From Leifsonia shinshuensis (GTDB taxonomy: Bacteria; Actinomycetota; Actinomycetes; Actinomycetales; Microbacteriaceae): a stretch of 64,000 nt of DNA. The translations under genes were made by a program, and so were the position numbers. Below, piece after piece: positions 2,069-30,999 of this stretch. The DNA lies in contig NZ_JAHHZQ010000005.1 of assembly GCF_022606355.1 (NCBI RefSeq), positions 310,001-374,000 of the forward strand, in the 5' to 3' direction. The notes below the pieces were generated by a model that worked only from the letters and a program-made list of their open reading frames with translations, made no database searches and was not told the origin of the DNA. Positions within the stretch are counted from its first letter, which is position 1; the number at the start of each line of letters is the position of its first letter.

Positions 2069-2650
2069 ATGACCAGGATCGCCATCATCATCGGCAGCAC
2101 CCGCCCGGGCCGCAACGGGGAGTCCGTCGCCCGCTGGGTGCTGGAGCACGCCGAGAAGCGCGACGGCGTCGAGTACGAGCTCGTCGACCTCGCCGAGTGG
2201 AACCTCCCGCACCTCGACGAGCCGATGCCGGCCGCAGCGGGACAGTACGCCAACGACCACACCAAGGCGTGGGCCGCCAAGATCGCCGAGTTCGACGGCT
2301 ATCTGTTCGTCACCCCGGAGTACAACCACAGCACCTCCGGCGCGCTCAAGAACGCGATCGACTTCGTGGGCTCCGAGTGGTACAACAAGGCGGCCGGTTT
2401 CGTCAGCTACGGCGTCTTCGGCGGCGCCCGCGCGGTGGAGCACCTGCGCCTGGTGCTGTCGCAGCTGCAGGTCGCGACCGTCAGTGCGTTCGTCGGGCTG
2501 AGCCTCCAGCACGACTTCGAGAACTGGTCGCTCAAGCCGACCGCCGCTGCGGAGGCCGGGCTCACCCCGGTCTTCGACCAGCTCGAGTCGTGGTCGGCCG
2601 CGCTCGCGACGGTGCGCGATGCCGCCGCCGAGGAGGACGTCGCCGCGTAA
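2069..2650 (+). CDS. NAD(P)H-dependent FMN reductase family flavoprotein
   Basis: A 193-residue flavodoxin-like protein. The FMN phosphate loop is GSTRPGRNGES near residues 9-19. The second family signature PEYNHSTSGALKNAID near residue 81 binds the isoalloxazine ring. Such enzymes reduce FMN, quinones or azo dyes with NAD(P)H in the cytosol. AAAGG six bases before the ATG is the ribosome site. It is divergent from the MarR operon, a common arrangement for MarR-controlled quinone or oxidant defence reductases. The physiological substrate is not evident. Confidence 0.88.
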   Translation: MTRIAIIIGSTRPGRNGESVARWVLEHAEKRDGVEYELVDLAEWNLPHLDEPMPAAAGQYANDHTKAWAAKIAEFDGYLFVTPEYNHSTSGALKNAIDFVGSEWYNKAAGFVSYGVFGGARAVEHLRLVLSQLQVATVSAFVGLSLQHDFENWSLKPTAAAEAGLTPVFDQLESWSAALATVRDAAAEEDVAA

Positions 2651-2681: not shown

Positions 2682-2738
2682 CGAGGGGCACGTCGTCGTC
2701 ACTTTCGCGCCGCGAAAGCGACAACGACGTGCCCCTCG
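2682..2738. repeat. Long palindrome with CGAGGGGCACG arms (family 1, copy A)
   Basis: Two 28-base arms (2682-2709 and 2711-2738) match at 26 of 28 positions with almost no loop. The outer 11 bases are CGAGGGGCACG, and the same 11-mer also occurs directly repeated at 2665-2675. The inner arm differs from the other copies. It lies between the convergent FMN reductase and nei genes, so it could end transcription from both sides, but it lacks a T tract. Confidence 0.75.
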
Positions 2739-2745
2739 CTTCGAC

Positions 2746-3522
2746 TCAGGTCTGGCAGGTGGGGCAGAAGTACGTGACGCGTTCGTCCAGCTCGGTGCGG
2801 CCGAGTTCGGAGCGGTGCACGAGCGTGCCGCAGCGCAGGCACGGGCGGCCGTCGCGACCGTACACCCAGGTCGTGCGGCCGCGCCGGGTGTCGCCCGTCG
2901 TGACGCGCACGGCGCGGTCGCGGTTGGCGACCAGCATGCGCCGTGCCAGATCGACCGCCGCGGGGACATCGACCTCACCGACCGGCCGTGTCGGCAGCAT
3001 CCCGCGCACGAAGCAGATCTCGTTGGCGTAGACATTGCCGACTCCTGCGAGGTTGCGCTGGTCGAGCAGGGCGACCGCGATCGGCGTCCCGGGATGCGCC
3101 TCCACGCGCCGCACCGCCTCCGCGGCATCCCAGTCGGGGCCGAGGAGGTCCGGTCCGAGATGCCCGACGGCGGAGTCCTCCTGCGCGCGAGGGATCACCT
3201 CCAGCACCCCGAGCAGGAATCCCACGGCCTGCGACTCCGCCGTGCGCAGCACCGCCCGCGCCTGGAAGGCGGGATGGCGCCACCGGCCGCCCGGCGGATA
3301 CACCTCCCACGATCCCTCCATCTTCAGGTGGCTGTGGATGCTGTACCCGCCGACCCGGATCAGCAGGTGCTTTCCGCGGCTGACGACCTCCTCGACCCGC
3401 TGCCCGCTGAGAGCGACCGTCGCGTATGCGGGAACCCGGAAGTCCGTCTGCGTGAGCGTGCGCCCCGCCAACGCGCGCCGCAGGCGCACGGCGGTCTGGA
3501 AGACGGTGTCACCCTCGGGCAT
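2746..3522 (-). CDS. nei: Fpg/Nei family DNA glycosylase (endonuclease VIII-like)
   Basis: 258 residues, usual for the family. It begins MPEGDT: Pro2 is the Schiff-base nucleophile and Glu3 the catalytic acid. The conserved Lys is in SRGKHLL near residue 51. The helix-two-turn-helix region contains LLDQRNLAGVGNVYANEICF, and the C-terminus carries a CLRC...CPTC zinc finger. It removes oxidised bases and cleaves abasic sites. The MPEGDT rather than MPELPE start points to the Nei side. The start at 3522 lies 7 bases after the stop of the lhr-like helicase, indicating one operon and a shared repair role, a pairing known in actinobacteria. Confidence 0.9.
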   Translation of the reverse strand: MPEGDTVFQTAVRLRRALAGRTLTQTDFRVPAYATVALSGQRVEEVVSRGKHLLIRVGGYSIHSHLKMEGSWEVYPPGGRWRHPAFQARAVLRTAESQAVGFLLGVLEVIPRAQEDSAVGHLGPDLLGPDWDAAEAVRRVEAHPGTPIAVALLDQRNLAGVGNVYANEICFVRGMLPTRPVGEVDVPAAVDLARRMLVANRDRAVRVTTGDTRRGRTTWVYGRDGRPCLRCGTLVHRSELGRTELDERVTYFCPTCQT

Positions 3523-13615: not shown

Positions 13616-15832
13616 GTGCAGGAATCGGAACTCGATCGTGAGCGCGCCGTCGTCTCGGGCCTGTACGAGCGGTTGGACACGCTCAGGGCCGAGACGGAGG
13701 AGCGGCTGACCCGCGTGCGCCGTGAGAGTGTCGGAAGCAACCACCAGGCGCGCAGCGAACGCGACGCCTTCGCCCGTCTGTACGAGGACCAGTTGCTGCA
13801 GCTGCGCGACGTGGATGCGCGGCTCGTGTTCGGCCGTCTGCTGCTCGACGAGCCCGTCGACGGCACCGACCGCCGCTACATCGGCCGTGTCGGCCTGCGC
13901 GACGACGACCAGCGCTCCGTGCTCGTGGACTGGCGCGCCCAGCAAGCGAGCGCGTTCTACCAGGCCACCGCGAGCGAGCGGATGGGGGTGCGCGCCCGCA
14001 GGCATCTGACGATGAACGGCCGCCAGGTCGTCCGCATCGACGACGAGGTCTTCGACGAGGCGCTGCTCGACGGCGCGGCGGCGGGCGGGCAGGTGCAGGG
14101 CGAGGGCGCGCTGCTGGCCGCGCTCACCGCGCAACGCACCGGCCGCATGCACGACATCGTGGCGACCATCCAGGCCGAGCAGGACCGCATCATCCGCTCC
14201 GACCTCCGCGGCGCCCTCGTGGTGCAGGGCGGTCCCGGCACCGGCAAGACCGCGGTGGCGCTGCACCGCGCCGCCTATCTGCTGTACGCCAACCGGCAGC
14301 GGCTGAGCGCCTCCGGCGTGCTCGTGGTCGGGCCGTCGTCGGCGTTCCTGCGGTACATCGAGGCGGTGCTGCCGTCGCTGGGCGAGACCGGAGTCGTCAT
14401 GCAGACGCTCGGCGAGCTGTACCCCGGGGTGGAGGCCACGGCCGAGGACGCTCCGGAGGCCGCGCGGCTGAAGGGCGCCGCGACCATGGCGCGGCTGCTG
14501 TCGCGTGCTGTCCGGTCGCGGCAGAAGGCACCCGACGGGCCGCAGACGATCGTGGTGGACAACGAGCGGCTGGTCGTTTCCCCCGAGCTCGTCCAGCGGG
14601 CCATCGCGAAGGCCCAGCGCACCGGCAAGCCGCACAACGTCGCCCGGGTCACCTTCGTCAAGCAGGCGCTGGGCGAGCTGACCGACCAGCTGGCGGCACA
14701 GCTGCGCGCCGGAGGCTCGACGATCGACGAGGCCGACCTCCGGGTGCTCCGTGAGGATCTCCGCACCTCGTACGACGTGCGCGTGCTGCTCAACACGGCC
14801 TGGCTTCCGTTGACGCCGCAGAAGCTGCTGCAGGATCTCTACGCGCGACCGGCGTGGCTCGCCGAGCTCACGCCGCGCTGGACGCCGGCCCAGCGGGCTG
14901 CTCTGCTGCGCGATCGCGGCGAGCCGTTCACCGTCTCTGACGTGCCGCTGCTCGACGAGGCGGCCGAGCTGCTCGGCGACTTCCCCGGGCGTGCCGACCC
15001 GGCCTCCCGCGAGCGCGACCGGCAGCGCAAGCGCGACCTGGAGAACGCGCGCGCGGCGATCCGCAACATGGGCGTGGAGGGCCTGGTGAGCGCCGAGCAG
15101 CTGGCGGACGGGTTCGCCGAGCAGGTCGACCGCGGCACGACCGCCGAGCGCGCCGCCGCCGACCGTTCGTGGACCTACGGGCACGTGGTGGTGGACGAGG
15201 CCCAGGAGCTGTCGCCGATGCAGTGGCGCGTGCTGGTGCGCCGCTGCCCGATGAAGTCGTTCACGATCGTCGGCGACATCGCCCAGGTGGCGTCGGCGGC
15301 GGGGGCGACCAGCTGGGACGAGGCGCTGCGGCCCTCGTTCAAAGACGCCTGGCGTCTGGAGGAGCTGACCGTCAACTACCGCACGCCCGCCCAGATCACG
15401 CGCGAGGCCGAGCGCATCGCGCGCGACGCGGGGTTGCCGATCACCCCGACGCGCGCGGTCCGCGAGGGTGACTGGCCGATCCGCCGGGTGGCGGCGCAGG
15501 CGGACGGACTCCCCGAGGCGGTCGCGCAGGCTGTGGCCCACGATCGCGGCATCGACCGGGACGGCACGCTCGCCGTCATCGCGACCGCGACCGACGTGGA
15601 GGCCGTGGCCGCCGCGGTGCGCGGACGCTTCGGGGACGACGCTGCGCGCGGCGCGGCGGGCCTCACCCGCCCGATCTCGGTGCTGACCGGCTACGAGGCG
15701 AAGGGGCTCGAGTTCGACGCCGTCGTGCTGGCCGACCCGCACGCGCTCGCCGCCGAGTCGGTGCGCGGCGCCGCGTCGCTGTACGTCGCGATGACCCGCC
15801 CCACCCAGCGCCTCACGCTCGTCGCTCGCTGA
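13616..15832 (+). CDS. HelD/HelR-like RNA polymerase-associated ATPase (UvrD-like superfamily 1)
   Basis: 738 residues. An N-terminal helical hairpin region (about 1-60, rich in E, R and L) precedes a split SF1 ATPase with Walker A GGPGTGKT (205-212), DEAQE near residue 527 and a late TGYEAKGLEFD plus YVAMTRPTQRL. There is no 2A/2B arrangement of a true UvrD. Layout and length match actinobacterial class II HelD, which pushes into RNA polymerase channels, clears nucleic acid from stalled enzyme and in some species (HelR) removes rifamycin. GTG start after GGAAGG. Assignment as HelD is strong; HelR-type drug protection is inferred. Confidence 0.8.
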   Translation: MQESELDRERAVVSGLYERLDTLRAETEERLTRVRRESVGSNHQARSERDAFARLYEDQLLQLRDVDARLVFGRLLLDEPVDGTDRRYIGRVGLRDDDQRSVLVDWRAQQASAFYQATASERMGVRARRHLTMNGRQVVRIDDEVFDEALLDGAAAGGQVQGEGALLAALTAQRTGRMHDIVATIQAEQDRIIRSDLRGALVVQGGPGTGKTAVALHRAAYLLYANRQRLSASGVLVVGPSSAFLRYIEAVLPSLGETGVVMQTLGELYPGVEATAEDAPEAARLKGAATMARLLSRAVRSRQKAPDGPQTIVVDNERLVVSPELVQRAIAKAQRTGKPHNVARVTFVKQALGELTDQLAAQLRAGGSTIDEADLRVLREDLRTSYDVRVLLNTAWLPLTPQKLLQDLYARPAWLAELTPRWTPAQRAALLRDRGEPFTVSDVPLLDEAAELLGDFPGRADPASRERDRQRKRDLENARAAIRNMGVEGLVSAEQLADGFAEQVDRGTTAERAAADRSWTYGHVVVDEAQELSPMQWRVLVRRCPMKSFTIVGDIAQVASAAGATSWDEALRPSFKDAWRLEELTVNYRTPAQITREAERIARDAGLPITPTRAVREGDWPIRRVAAQADGLPEAVAQAVAHDRGIDRDGTLAVIATATDVEAVAAAVRGRFGDDAARGAAGLTRPISVLTGYEAKGLEFDAVVLADPHALAAESVRGAASLYVAMTRPTQRLTLVAR

Positions 15833-15853: not shown

Positions 15854-15910
15854 CGAAGGGCACGCAAGCGCCCCCAAAACACACTTTTAGGGGCGTTTAG
15901 GTGCCCCTCG
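15854..15910. repeat. Long palindrome with CGAGGGGCAC arms (family 1, copy B, diverged)
   Basis: Arms of 26 bases (15854-15879 and 15885-15910) pair at 21 of 26 positions around a CACAC loop. The outer sequence matches copies A and C, while the inner part (GCGCCCCCAAAA versus TTTTAGGGGCGT) is nearer copy C. It lies between the convergent HelD-like and DUF1684 genes. The TTTT run makes a terminator role plausible on the plus strand. Confidence 0.65.
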
Positions 15911-15934: not shown

Positions 15935-16615
15935 TCAGCCGGCGTAGCGCTCGCCGACGGGGATGTCGACGGGGAGCGTGTTGCCCGCCTGCGCGAGCGG
16001 GCACGCCCAGGCCGGGTCGTACGCGCACGAGGGGTTGTAGGCGAAGTTGAAGTCGAGGACGAGAGTGGCCTCGCCGTCGTCGGCCGACATCCCGAGATCG
16101 GCGCCCTTGATCGTGTCGATCAGGTAGCGTCCGCCGCCGTAGGTGCCGCCGCGCGTGCCGGCCAGCGCATCCTTGATCGGCACGAAGAGGCCACCGCCGT
16201 AGGAGGCCAGCCGCCATACGTCGAGGGTGCCGGCGAGCGGCACCCGCACGGTGCCCAGAAGCTCGAAGGGCACGACGCCGTCCGTGCCGGTCTCGACGTC
16301 CATCCGCTTCGCCTCCGCCGGCGCGTGCACGGGAAGCTCGAACCGCCAGTCGGGGTCGTACGGCGAGACGGGGAGGCCGGTGAAGCGGTCCCGGTCGGCG
16401 TCGAGCAGCGGGGAGGCCGGGTGCGACGAGAACAGGTCGTTGCGGCAGGAGATCCAGTGCGCGTGCGCGGCGGCGGGGTCGCTCGCCGCGATCCGGCGCA
16501 CCGACGAGTACAGCGCGAACACGCTGCGCCGCCAGTCCGCGGTCTGCACCGCCGTCACCGCTCGCCCCTGACCGGGGTCGACCGCCGATGCGGACTCGGG
16601 GGTGGTGGTGCTCAT
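15935..16615 (-). CDS. DUF1684 domain protein
   Basis: 226 residues. The C-terminal half has the hallmarks of DUF1684: GGGRYLIDTIKGAD, then DFNFAYNPSCAYDP and CPLA followed by NTLPVDIPVGER. The family is widespread, has no proven activity and is annotated only by its conserved Cys/Asn/Asp residues. The N-terminal HAHWISCRNDLFSSHPASPL is also typical. Its ATG overlaps the stop of the SRPBCC gene by four bases (ATGA), so it is translationally coupled as the last gene of the ECF42 operon. Confidence 0.85.
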   Translation of the reverse strand: MSTTTPESASAVDPGQGRAVTAVQTADWRRSVFALYSSVRRIAASDPAAAHAHWISCRNDLFSSHPASPLLDADRDRFTGLPVSPYDPDWRFELPVHAPAEAKRMDVETGTDGVVPFELLGTVRVPLAGTLDVWRLASYGGGLFVPIKDALAGTRGGTYGGGRYLIDTIKGADLGMSADDGEATLVLDFNFAYNPSCAYDPAWACPLAQAGNTLPVDIPVGERYAG

Positions 16616-20192: not shown

Positions 20193-20495
20193 ATGAAAGC
20201 TGTTCTGAACGACACCGTCATCGCCGAGGCTCCGACCGAGGATCTCATCCGCATCGAGGGCAACTGGTACTTCCCGCCCGCGAGCGTGAACGCCGAGCAC
20301 CTGGTCGCGTCCGACACCCCGTACACGTGTCCGTGGAAGGGTGAGTGCCAGTACTTCTCGGTCAAGGACGGCGACACGGTGCTGCAGGATCGCGCGTGGA
20401 GCTATCCGACGCCGTATCCGAGCTCCTTCGACCGCGTCGGCAAGGATTACAGCAACTACGTCGCGTTCTGGAAGGACGTCCGGGTCGTGGACTGA
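20193..20495 (+). CDS. DUF427 family protein
   Basis: 100 residues, the usual size. It shows the family pattern: KAVLNDTVIAEAP, then IRIEGNWYFPP, TPYTCPWKGECQYFSV, and AWSYPTPYPSSFDRVGKDYS. DUF427 is a small beta-rich cytosolic fold of unknown function. A strong AGGAGG lies eight bases before the ATG, so expression may be high. It stands alone; hairpins follow the stop directly. Confidence 0.9.
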   Translation: MKAVLNDTVIAEAPTEDLIRIEGNWYFPPASVNAEHLVASDTPYTCPWKGECQYFSVKDGDTVLQDRAWSYPTPYPSSFDRVGKDYSNYVAFWKDVRVVD

Positions 20496-20498
20496 TCC

Positions 20499-20563
20499 GT
20501 CCGCCCCCTGGACTGGGGGACGGACTTGTCCTCATTTTTGAGGACTGTCCCCCGAAAACGGGG
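20499..20563 (+). terminator. Three consecutive hairpins after DUF427
   Basis: Hairpin 1: GTCCGCCCCC (20499-20508) with GGGGGACGGAC (20515-20525), one bulge. Hairpin 2: GTCCTCA/TGAGGAC (20528-20534, 20539-20545) with a TTTT loop. Hairpin 3: CCCCG/CGGGG (20550-20554, 20559-20563) with an AAAA loop. The first probably ends DUF427 transcription. Three so close together could also act as an attenuator ahead of the surface-protein gene. Confidence 0.5.
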
Positions 20564-29614: not shown

Positions 29615-30223
29615 TCAGGCGGTCGTGACCTCGAGCCGCGCGTCGAGCCCGTCGCGCACCGCCGGCCACTCCTCCCGCAGCACCGAGTACACCGCGGTGT
29701 CGCGCCACGTGCCGTCCGCTCGCGGCTGCGTGTGCCGCAGCACGCCCTCGAACGTGGCGCCGAGGCGGAGGATCGCGGCCCTGGATCGTTCGTTGAGCAC
29801 GTCCGCCTGCAGCTTCACCCGCTCGAAGCCGTTGTCGAACGCCGTGCCGAGCAGCAGCCGCTTCGTCTCGGCATTGACGCGCGTGCCCCAGACCTCCGGC
29901 GCGTAGGCCGTCCAGCCGATGTGGGCGGAGCCGTTCGCGAGATCGAAGTCGCCCAGCGTGGTCGTTCCGACGATGCGGTCGCCGTCGCGCAGGCACACGG
30001 CGGTGACGTTGCCGGTGTCCCAGGCGAGGTAGCGCAGGATGAACTCCCGCCACTCCTCGTAGGTGTCGCGGTAGGCGGCGAGGCCGCCACCCCAGCCTCC
30101 CGCGAACACCTCGGGATGGCCGATCGCGTCGTGCAGGTCGGGCAGGTCGTCCGTCGTGAGGGCGCGCAGGCGCACCGTCGCACCCTCGAGGACGGCGGCG
30201 GGGTCGGGACGGCGCGCATTCAT
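29615..30223 (-). CDS. GNAT family N-acetyltransferase (RimJ/RimL-like)
   Basis: 202 residues. It starts with VRLRALTTDDLPDLHDAIGH and continues through AVCLRDGDRIVGTTTLGDFD, AHIGWTAYAPEVWGTRVNAE and LGTAFDNGFERVKLQADVLN to ILRLGATFEGVLRHTQPRAD, the strand order of RimJ/RimL acetyltransferases. It should transfer acetyl from acetyl-CoA to an amine of a protein or small molecule. Convergent with the SprT-like gene (17-base gap). Divergent from the CGNR regulator, with a long palindrome in between. Confidence 0.87.
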   Translation of the reverse strand: MNARRPDPAAVLEGATVRLRALTTDDLPDLHDAIGHPEVFAGGWGGGLAAYRDTYEEWREFILRYLAWDTGNVTAVCLRDGDRIVGTTTLGDFDLANGSAHIGWTAYAPEVWGTRVNAETKRLLLGTAFDNGFERVKLQADVLNERSRAAILRLGATFEGVLRHTQPRADGTWRDTAVYSVLREEWPAVRDGLDARLEVTTA

Positions 30224-30264: not shown

Positions 30265-30321
30265 CGAGGGGCACGCAAACGCCCCTGAAACGCCCGTTTG
30301 AGGGCGTTTGCGTGCCCCTCG
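30265..30321. repeat. Long palindrome with CGAGGGGCACG arms (family 1, copy C) in a divergent region
   Basis: Arms 30265-30292 and 30295-30321 pair perfectly over their outer 20 bases (CGAGGGGCACGCAAACGCCC) and then with one bulge and one mismatch. It sits between the divergent GNAT (start 30223) and CGNR (start 30364) genes, so it cannot be a terminator for either. This placement is the best evidence that family 1 is a dispersed repeat element rather than a set of terminators. Confidence 0.75.
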
Positions 30322-30363: not shown

Positions 30364-30999
30364 GTGCCTACCGACGTCCTCCTGCCCCGCGAAACCGGCC
30401 AGTGGATGGACGACTCCGACGGGCTGCGCTGGTGGTTCGACTCCGGCTCGCTCGCCCTCGACTTCTCGTACACGGGCGGGCTCGACGAGCCGGACAACGC
30501 CGAATGGCGGTCGGTCGACGACGCGGAAGCGCTCGGCGGCTGGCTCCAGGAGCGCTTCCCCGAGGTGGCGGCCACCTCCGGCGAACGGGAGTTCCGCGAC
30601 GCCGAGATGCTGCGCATCGCCATCGGCAGGCTCGCGCGTCAGGCCAGCAGAGGCGAGACTCTCGCGCCCGACGATGTCGACGTCGTGAACCTGTTCGCGG
30701 CGACCCCCGACATCCCGCCCGTGCTGGCCGGCGGTGGTCGGCAGGCCGGACGGACTCTCGCACGGCCGCACCAGGCTCTCGGCACGGTCGCTCGCGATGC
30801 CGTCCGGCTCTTCGGCCCGGACGCAGACGGTCGCATCCGCGAGTGCTCGGCCGACGACTGCCGGCTGGTCTACCTCGACACGTCGCGCAGCGGCAACCGC
30901 CGCTGGTGCTCGATGCAGCGCTGCGGCAATCGCGCCAAGGTGCGGGCGCACCGCGCGCGTGCCGCCGGTGCGAGGGGTGCGGCCGGTACCGCAGAATAG
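30364..30999 (+). CDS. ABATE/CGNR zinc-finger regulator
   Basis: 211 residues. The N-terminal ABATE-type domain begins WFDSGSLALDFSYTGGLDEP. The C-terminal CGNR finger reads IRECSADDCRLVYLDTSRSG followed by RRWCSMQRCGNRAKVRAHRA, with the four cysteines and the name-giving CGNR. Such proteins are ligand-sensing transcription factors. It ends only four bases before pxpA, so it is almost surely co-transcribed with the oxoprolinase genes and likely controls them. Confidence 0.88.
   Translation: MPTDVLLPRETGQWMDDSDGLRWWFDSGSLALDFSYTGGLDEPDNAEWRSVDDAEALGGWLQERFPEVAATSGEREFRDAEMLRIAIGRLARQASRGETLAPDDVDVVNLFAATPDIPPVLAGGGRQAGRTLARPHQALGTVARDAVRLFGPDADGRIRECSADDCRLVYLDTSRSGNRRWCSMQRCGNRAKVRAHRARAAGARGAAGTAE

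Follow-up and report, generated by a model that had tools for sequence, protein, structure and literature searches.

The window, i.e., the whole stretch of 64,000 nt of Leifsonia shinshuensis DNA analysed here, holds three palindromes of 57 bp each at the positions where the initial annotation had found them. Each copy consists of two inverted half-sites, made up of a fixed 11-bp outer arm and an inner arm, which flank a variable centre. As judged from 69 copies of the same genome, the inner arms belong to two palindromic classes, A (~YARRCGCCC) and B (~TYGTYGTC). The first copy (2682-2738) has class B inner arms, TCGTCGTCACTTTCG, within perfect outer arms and is located between the convergent genes 2069-2650(+) and 2746-3522(-); a lone extra outer arm, CGAGGGGCACG, stands 6 bp ahead of it, at 2665-2675 on the + strand. 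The second copy (15854-15910) is of class A, with one mismatch per outer arm (CGAAGGGCACG / GGTGCCCCTCG), and lies between 13616-15832(+) and 15935-16615(-), again convergent. The third copy (30265-30321), also of class A and with perfect outer arms, lies between the divergent genes 29615-30223(-) and 30364-30999(+). Genes were called by our own codon-usage finder, not by a standard annotator, and the calls agree with the two convergent and one divergent contexts described before. The outer arm had been described as common to all three, which is exactly so for the first and third copies, the second departing from it by the mismatches given above. No match above the gathering score of Rfam 15 was obtained in the window. 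A separate palindrome, GGGGGACGGACTTGTCCTCATTTTTGAGGACTGTCCCCC, at 20515-20553, 3' of the gene 20193-20495(+), falls outside the 57-bp family.

The family is far larger than the three copies from which it was first proposed. Across the 11 contigs of the assembly, 4.78 Mb in total, 44 sites have both 11-bp outer arms perfect when the gap is left free between 20 and 50, and 42 of these are exactly 57 bp long, the remaining two being 55 and 56 bp. At a gap of 35 with up to three mismatches the number rises to 134. Reversed-pattern controls gave 0 sites in both searches, the exact-arm one with its gap of 20-50 covering the same 4.78 Mb, so the family is not a product of chance. The sites studied in detail were the 73 found in the window and in loci L001-L055, which cover part of the 134: 44 with perfect arms, 21 with one mismatch and eight with two to four. 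One four-mismatch site in coding DNA, seemingly spurious, was left out of the inner-class and spacer counts. Tandem arrays are present as well, e.g., L027 (G000:C4:950931-951631) with seven copies at a spacing of approximately 107 bp; six of the seven are of one asymmetric kind. The length is equally constant in the relative G027, where all 49 sites are 57 bp long.

Classes are seldom mixed within a copy. Among the 69 copies there were 45 AA, 21 BB, two mixed and one unclear, and the positions common to both classes are nearly invariant, G17 being found in every one of the 138 halves and C19 in 136. Complementarity of the inner arms over all classes was 0.761, compared with 0.559 after shuffling (shuffle maximum 0.643). 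Within class B, the two arms of one copy pair better than arms shuffled among copies (0.844 vs 0.802, sd 0.014), and the same was found for class B in G010 (0.894 vs 0.829, sd 0.012). No such pair-level compensation was seen in class A, where the values were 0.730 and 0.719 (sd 0.013). The compensated inner change reported initially is thus real between the classes, AA and BB together making up 66 of the 69 copies, and within B, but not within A. The predicted RNA fold of 59 copies is strong, with an average of -44.8 kcal/mol compared with -19.2 for shuffled sequences. Outward of the palindrome the flank prefers GCG.

With each tandem array entered once, the studied copies occupy 59 spacers: 30 convergent, 25 tandem (13 + 12), three divergent and one called inside a gene. 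As background we took the 249 adjacent gene pairs in 264 kb, comprising the window and 10 stretches picked regardless of copies, with 38 convergent, 172 tandem and 39 divergent pairs. Convergent spacers are strongly enriched (30/59 vs 38/249, p 3.5e-8), and divergent ones are depleted (p 0.03 relative to all pairs, 1.5e-4 relative to spacers of at least 60 bp). The nearest stop codon is at a median distance of 14 bp (68 sites, array members counted singly). The bias recurs in G027 (15 loci; 12 convergent, three tandem, none divergent) and in G014, which carries another arm family (15 loci; 10 convergent, four tandem, none divergent, one called inside a gene). The initial annotation had argued from the divergent copy of the window that a terminator role could not explain all copies, an argument that loses most of its force genome-wide with three divergent spacers in 59, and is further weakened by the probable gain of that very copy in this lineage. 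A location strictly at 3' ends together with T runs had been named as what would reduce the family to terminators; the 3'-end bias was found and the T runs were not, the T fraction being 0.06-0.25 across positions +1 to +15 of 85 sense flanks. Since T runs are absent 3' of the hairpin, a simple intrinsic terminator is not established.

Sites with exact arms were present in 11 of 28 Leifsonia genomes, that of the window included, and in none of 32 genomes outside the genus, out of 60 in total; 17 of the 28 Leifsonia genomes had no such site. A second arm family, TCGAGTCCG...CGGACTCGA, was found in 12 of the 28. The two families, CGAGGGGCACG in 11 genomes and TCGAGTCCG in 12, never share a Leifsonia genome, and five of the 28 have neither. 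One extra match to the second family, in genus g23, does not look palindromic in its interior. Palindromes with TCGAGTCCG arms are 58-60 bp long and often have a GACACGCCG-like centre (L239-L253; G001, G004, G007, G012-G015, G019, G021). In G014, 42 of 44 are 60 bp and two are 59 bp long; their inner halves mix more freely, and the pairing excess is modest (0.837 vs 0.787, sd 0.015, in 35 of the 44 copies). The spacers of the first and second window copies hold other palindromes or none in other Leifsonia. In G020 and G024 the spacer of the second copy has 0.7-1.0 kb of extra DNA and no palindrome (L180, L181). A CATTCGTNACGAATG-like hairpin unit occurs two or three times per spacer in G010, G008 and G005 (L203, L210, L166), and the G027 spacer L205 contains repeated CCGGAATAA / TTATTCCGG-like units where the genome of the window has a class A copy.

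A scan of a wider contig collection with the exact 57-bp frame gave matches in Leifsonia and Actinomycetospora, and one in Paraoerskovia. Actinomycetospora belongs to an order other than that of Leifsonia. In eight Actinomycetospora genomes, with the gap allowed to vary between 22 and 52, 25 of 29 exact-arm sites were 57 bp long, the other four being 56, 56, 62 and 63 bp. The interiors appear to differ from the Leifsonia ones and mostly have an orientation, with conserved mismatches at positions 14/44 (G-G in 17 of 20) and 15/43 (C-C in 16 of 20). For 23 copies with genes on both sides, two rows from Paraoerskovia and two spurious ones of 74 bp being omitted, the context was convergent in eight, tandem in eight and divergent in seven; three further copies had a gene called on one side only. 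The convergent share is raised, with p 0.09 against gene pairs of the same loci and p 0.007 against spacers of at least 60 bp, and no divergent depletion was seen against the gene pairs of the same loci. The arms and the length common to the two genera may reflect common ancestry, transfer or a binding protein present in both. In two viral contigs (L192, L193) exact-arm pairs of 45 and 52 bp were observed.

Close relatives differ in which sites are occupied. Relatedness was ordered by identity at the first window copy (G010 91%, G008 88%, G027 84%, G020 82%) and no tree was built; class B orthologues of this copy were found in G010, G008 and G027. Over syntenic stretches the window has three copies, G010 two, G008 one, G027 three and G020, for which approximately 37 kb only could be compared, none. 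For the occupancy counts, loci were located by flanking DNA or synteny only. G010 occupies three of 14 class A sites of the window genome (one AA, two BB; 11 empty) and all five of its class B sites (Fisher p 0.005). G008 occupies one of 10 A sites, and G027 four of eight, of which two are AA and two BB; some A sites would therefore be old and lost in other lineages. From these sequence comparisons class A sites seem to turn over fast, and the class does not appear to be simply young. The third window copy is missing from G010, G008, G027 and G020, and its spacer without the element measures 46 bp, close to the 45 bp of G010, with 35 bp in G008 and 36 bp in G020. By parsimony, applied without a formal tree, this copy is probably a gain in the present lineage. 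Losses were also encountered. At L031, G010 retains one whole arm, a clear loss, and the comparison of L019 of the window genome with L123 offers a clear single case of a deletion scar. As a general cause of empty sites such scars were not retained: three of 17 hold an arm remnant of at least 8 nt where 0.8 are expected, which is suggestive only. In G025 two contigs cover the region of the first copy (L149, L160), one with the element and the other with the right arm alone, which also reads as a clear loss, although this may be a mixed assembly.

At some sites the element is shared and its interior is not. The set of 25 orthologous element pairs represents 20 distinct sites of the window genome. 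Some of these loci were found by exact arms, a route biased towards shared copies, and others by their flanks. At five of the 20 sites the window genome is AA and a relative is BB, with an inner identity of 0.26-0.37 and flanks that are 84-94% identical. At three of them, L044, L022 and the second window copy, the class differs within shared arms and flanks, and as far as alignment can tell these are strong cases of class exchange. Between the window genome and G010 the flanks of L044 and L022 align up to the arms, save for scattered substitutions and a 1-base gap. The second window copy is of class A here and of class B in G010 and G027, and G008 has no element at this place. A left-arm variant, CGAAGGG, is common to all three genomes (G000, G010 and G027) despite the differing interior, and the changed tract is therefore internal. 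In the simplest history this copy probably changed from B to A in place, with the arms kept, in the lineage of the window. The other two sites are weak cases, in which separate gains are possible because nearer relatives lack the element: L014 is class B in G027 but empty in both G010 and G008, and L021 is class B in G008, where the arms differ by two bases, but empty in both G010 and G027. One more A/B difference, L034 vs L064, can be aligned at one flank only.

Of 38 G010 copies examined, 35 are BB. In the 13 G010 ortholog pairs the inner identity was 0.699, compared with 0.689 to paralogs of the same genome, at a flank identity of 91.7%. Against non-orthologous copies of the window genome the G010 copies scored 0.504, and in G008 (five pairs) orthologs (0.674) exceeded paralogs within that genome (0.565). 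Vertical descent is thus strong, orthologs being more alike than non-orthologs and, in G008, also more alike than paralogs. Identical 7-nt centres are shared between copies of G027 in 24 of 2352 comparisons, where column shuffles, which break the pairing, gave 2.7; in G000 the excess over such shuffles was weak (11 vs 4.2, shuffle maximum 12). No donor of the changed interiors was found among 56 copies of the window genome, out of at least 134, the best inner match being 0.80-0.91.

A RAYT-like transposase had been suggested as the partner of the palindromes, and here the expectation failed: a search for RAYT/Y1 transposases (PF01797) was negative in all 28 Leifsonia genomes and positive in five of 14 controls, including E. 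coli. No clear target duplication was seen at the ends. Only a length of n=3 stood out (0.266 vs 0.198, sd 0.025), and over 252 offset/length tests the best z was 3.7 at 40% identity. One empty partner, that of L023 (G000:C4:599995), suggests by eye an imperfect 6-bp junction repeat. BLAST of the first window copy against plasmids and of the third against phages gave no match, and no shared machinery candidate was seen among some of the genes that flank the tandem arrays. A SbcC homologue was found in all six genomes searched; it lends little to a breakage model, since 12 of the 14 control genomes have one too.

Taken together, we tentatively favour, while holding it somewhat short of probable, a RAYT-less, REPIN-like family of dispersed non-coding 57-bp palindromes which is homogenised by ectopic conversion. 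The hairpin or cruciform would stall replication or be broken, for instance by SbcCD, and the gap would be filled in from the interior of a second copy, for which the shared outer arms provide the homology. Interiors would in this manner be swapped as blocks of constant length and the copies of one genome would grow alike, the outer arms remaining fixed; new sites would arise by rarer copying into spacers. Retention at 3' ends could be understood if a strong two-way hairpin is harmless or useful there, as a transcript end or in 3'-end protection, and harmful elsewhere. What the sequences show is the copy number, the nearly constant length, the position close to stop codons, the presence or absence between sister species and, at three sites, the class difference within shared arms; the mechanism, as well as any role in termination, is inferred. 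Against this reading stand the missing pair-level compensation in class A and the missing interior donor, the weakness of two of the five class differences, the strong vertical descent, the weak centre excess in G000, and the lack of T runs, and in addition arms of 11 bp are shorter than the homology usually used by RecA. The undepleted divergent sites of Actinomycetospora (7/23) and the conserved mismatches there also count against it, as do the A sites that are not simply young and the absences that are losses.

Two rivals, both unlikely in our judgement, have to be weighed. The palindromes could be MITE-like miniature transposons, moved in trans by a transposase for which the outer arms, set a fixed distance apart, are the recognition signal. 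Fixed ends and fixed length would follow directly, as would the probable gain of the third window copy, the A sites empty in G010, the identical arms and length in the distant Actinomycetospora, and the imperfect junction repeat at L023. However, interiors differ inside shared arms, clear target duplications are missing, the transposase family that was searched, Y1, gave no hit, the plasmid and phage comparisons were negative, and the exact-arm matches in viral contigs are of other lengths. The second rival, which we also consider unlikely, takes the palindromes as sites of a sequence-specific DNA-binding protein, a chromosome organiser or a transcription roadblock, with half-sites 46 bp apart. 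The invariance of G17 and near invariance of C19 across both classes, the nearly fixed length, the lack of pair-level compensation in class A, and the orientation and conserved mismatches in Actinomycetospora all suit it, mismatches being better explained by protein recognition. It is at odds with the patchy distribution in the genus, the different arm motif in sister species, the rapid gain and loss and the strong 3'-end bias in Leifsonia. Plain bidirectional terminators, alike merely by selection for a strong hairpin, are very unlikely, for although the position near stop codons, the strong fold and the other palindromes noticed by eye in the two corresponding spacers of some sister species agree with them, selection on the hairpin alone cannot account for identical arms, fixed length and block differences, T runs are absent, and the element is missing from many orthologous spacers.

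Among known systems the REPIN comes closest in its working. In the account of Bertels and Rainey (2011, PMC3116915), as far as its consulted parts go, this REP doublet forms a hairpin with conserved inverted ends, in which the length of the spacer and the hairpin capacity matter and compensatory changes occur, and the copies are dispersed and extragenic, some of them in ordered tandem arrays. The Leifsonia palindromes likewise have two inverted ends and a pairing spacer of conserved length. Unlike REPINs they are 57 bp long and hug stop codons, no RAYT/Y1 was found in 28 Leifsonia genomes, and sister species can have an entire interior of the other class at an orthologous site. The REP/BIME-like nature proposed initially is largely borne out in architecture by the dispersed copies, arrays, presence/absence, fixed ends and length-constrained spacer, but not by a RAYT engine, and because no RAYT was found in 28 of 28 genomes we regard the family as working like REPINs without filing it as one. 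The nearest named precedent in the consulted part of the literature are the CGTC-tagged REPs, which also go without a dedicated transposase (PMC3733652). There, GTAG- and CGTC-tagged REPs are described as short palindromes of 20-40, mostly 3' of genes in convergent or tandem settings, compared with 57 bp here, and the term Actinobacteria is absent from the text. Neither tag is enriched within 8 nt of the ends of our copies (GTAG 1/59, expected 3.1; CGTC 11/59, expected 6.9, sd 2.5). REPs in the broad sense of RepRanger (PMC12306157), in the portion consulted, are extragenic, palindromic, alike, multi-copy and free of a T-rich terminator tail. The Leifsonia palindromes have these properties but exceed the 14-40 nt given there for E. 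coli. The same portion lists putative REPs for three Actinomycetota species, with Leifsonia unnamed, and two inner classes and in-place exchange, both features of the Leifsonia family, are not met in it. Intrinsic terminators share with the Leifsonia hairpin its position just 3' of genes, but the latter has no T run and shows a common sequence and length. Among the listed titles and opening lines of abstracts, in literature lying mostly outside subscription journals, no description of the 57-bp family was found, the term Actinomycetota being covered in part, nor any work joining REP or REPIN, RAYT and Actinobacteria.

More broadly, it is conceivable, though we think it rather improbable, that these elements represent a separate class of palindrome in Actinomycetota, mobile and self-homogenising. 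A machinery would then read outer arms of fixed sequence and spacing, with an element length of 57 bp for both Leifsonia and Actinomycetospora and of 58-60 bp for the sister Leifsonia that have the other arm; it would tolerate any interior and swap interiors as cassettes, the arm being specific for the clade and the mix of interiors for the species. Gene conversion in REP-type repeats has been a question since at least 1988, when Higgins, McLaren and Newbury reportedly posed it as a route of their evolution. With respect to that question, orthologous Leifsonia sites show a changed interior with the ends kept, and the comparison of close sister species appears to capture the exchange itself, the place and the flanks being the same, the arms identical or nearly so, and the interior another one. 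A REPIN-like population without detectable RAYT, with two mutually exclusive arm families across 28 Leifsonia genomes, would offer a natural setting in which to test what elements of this kind require to spread.
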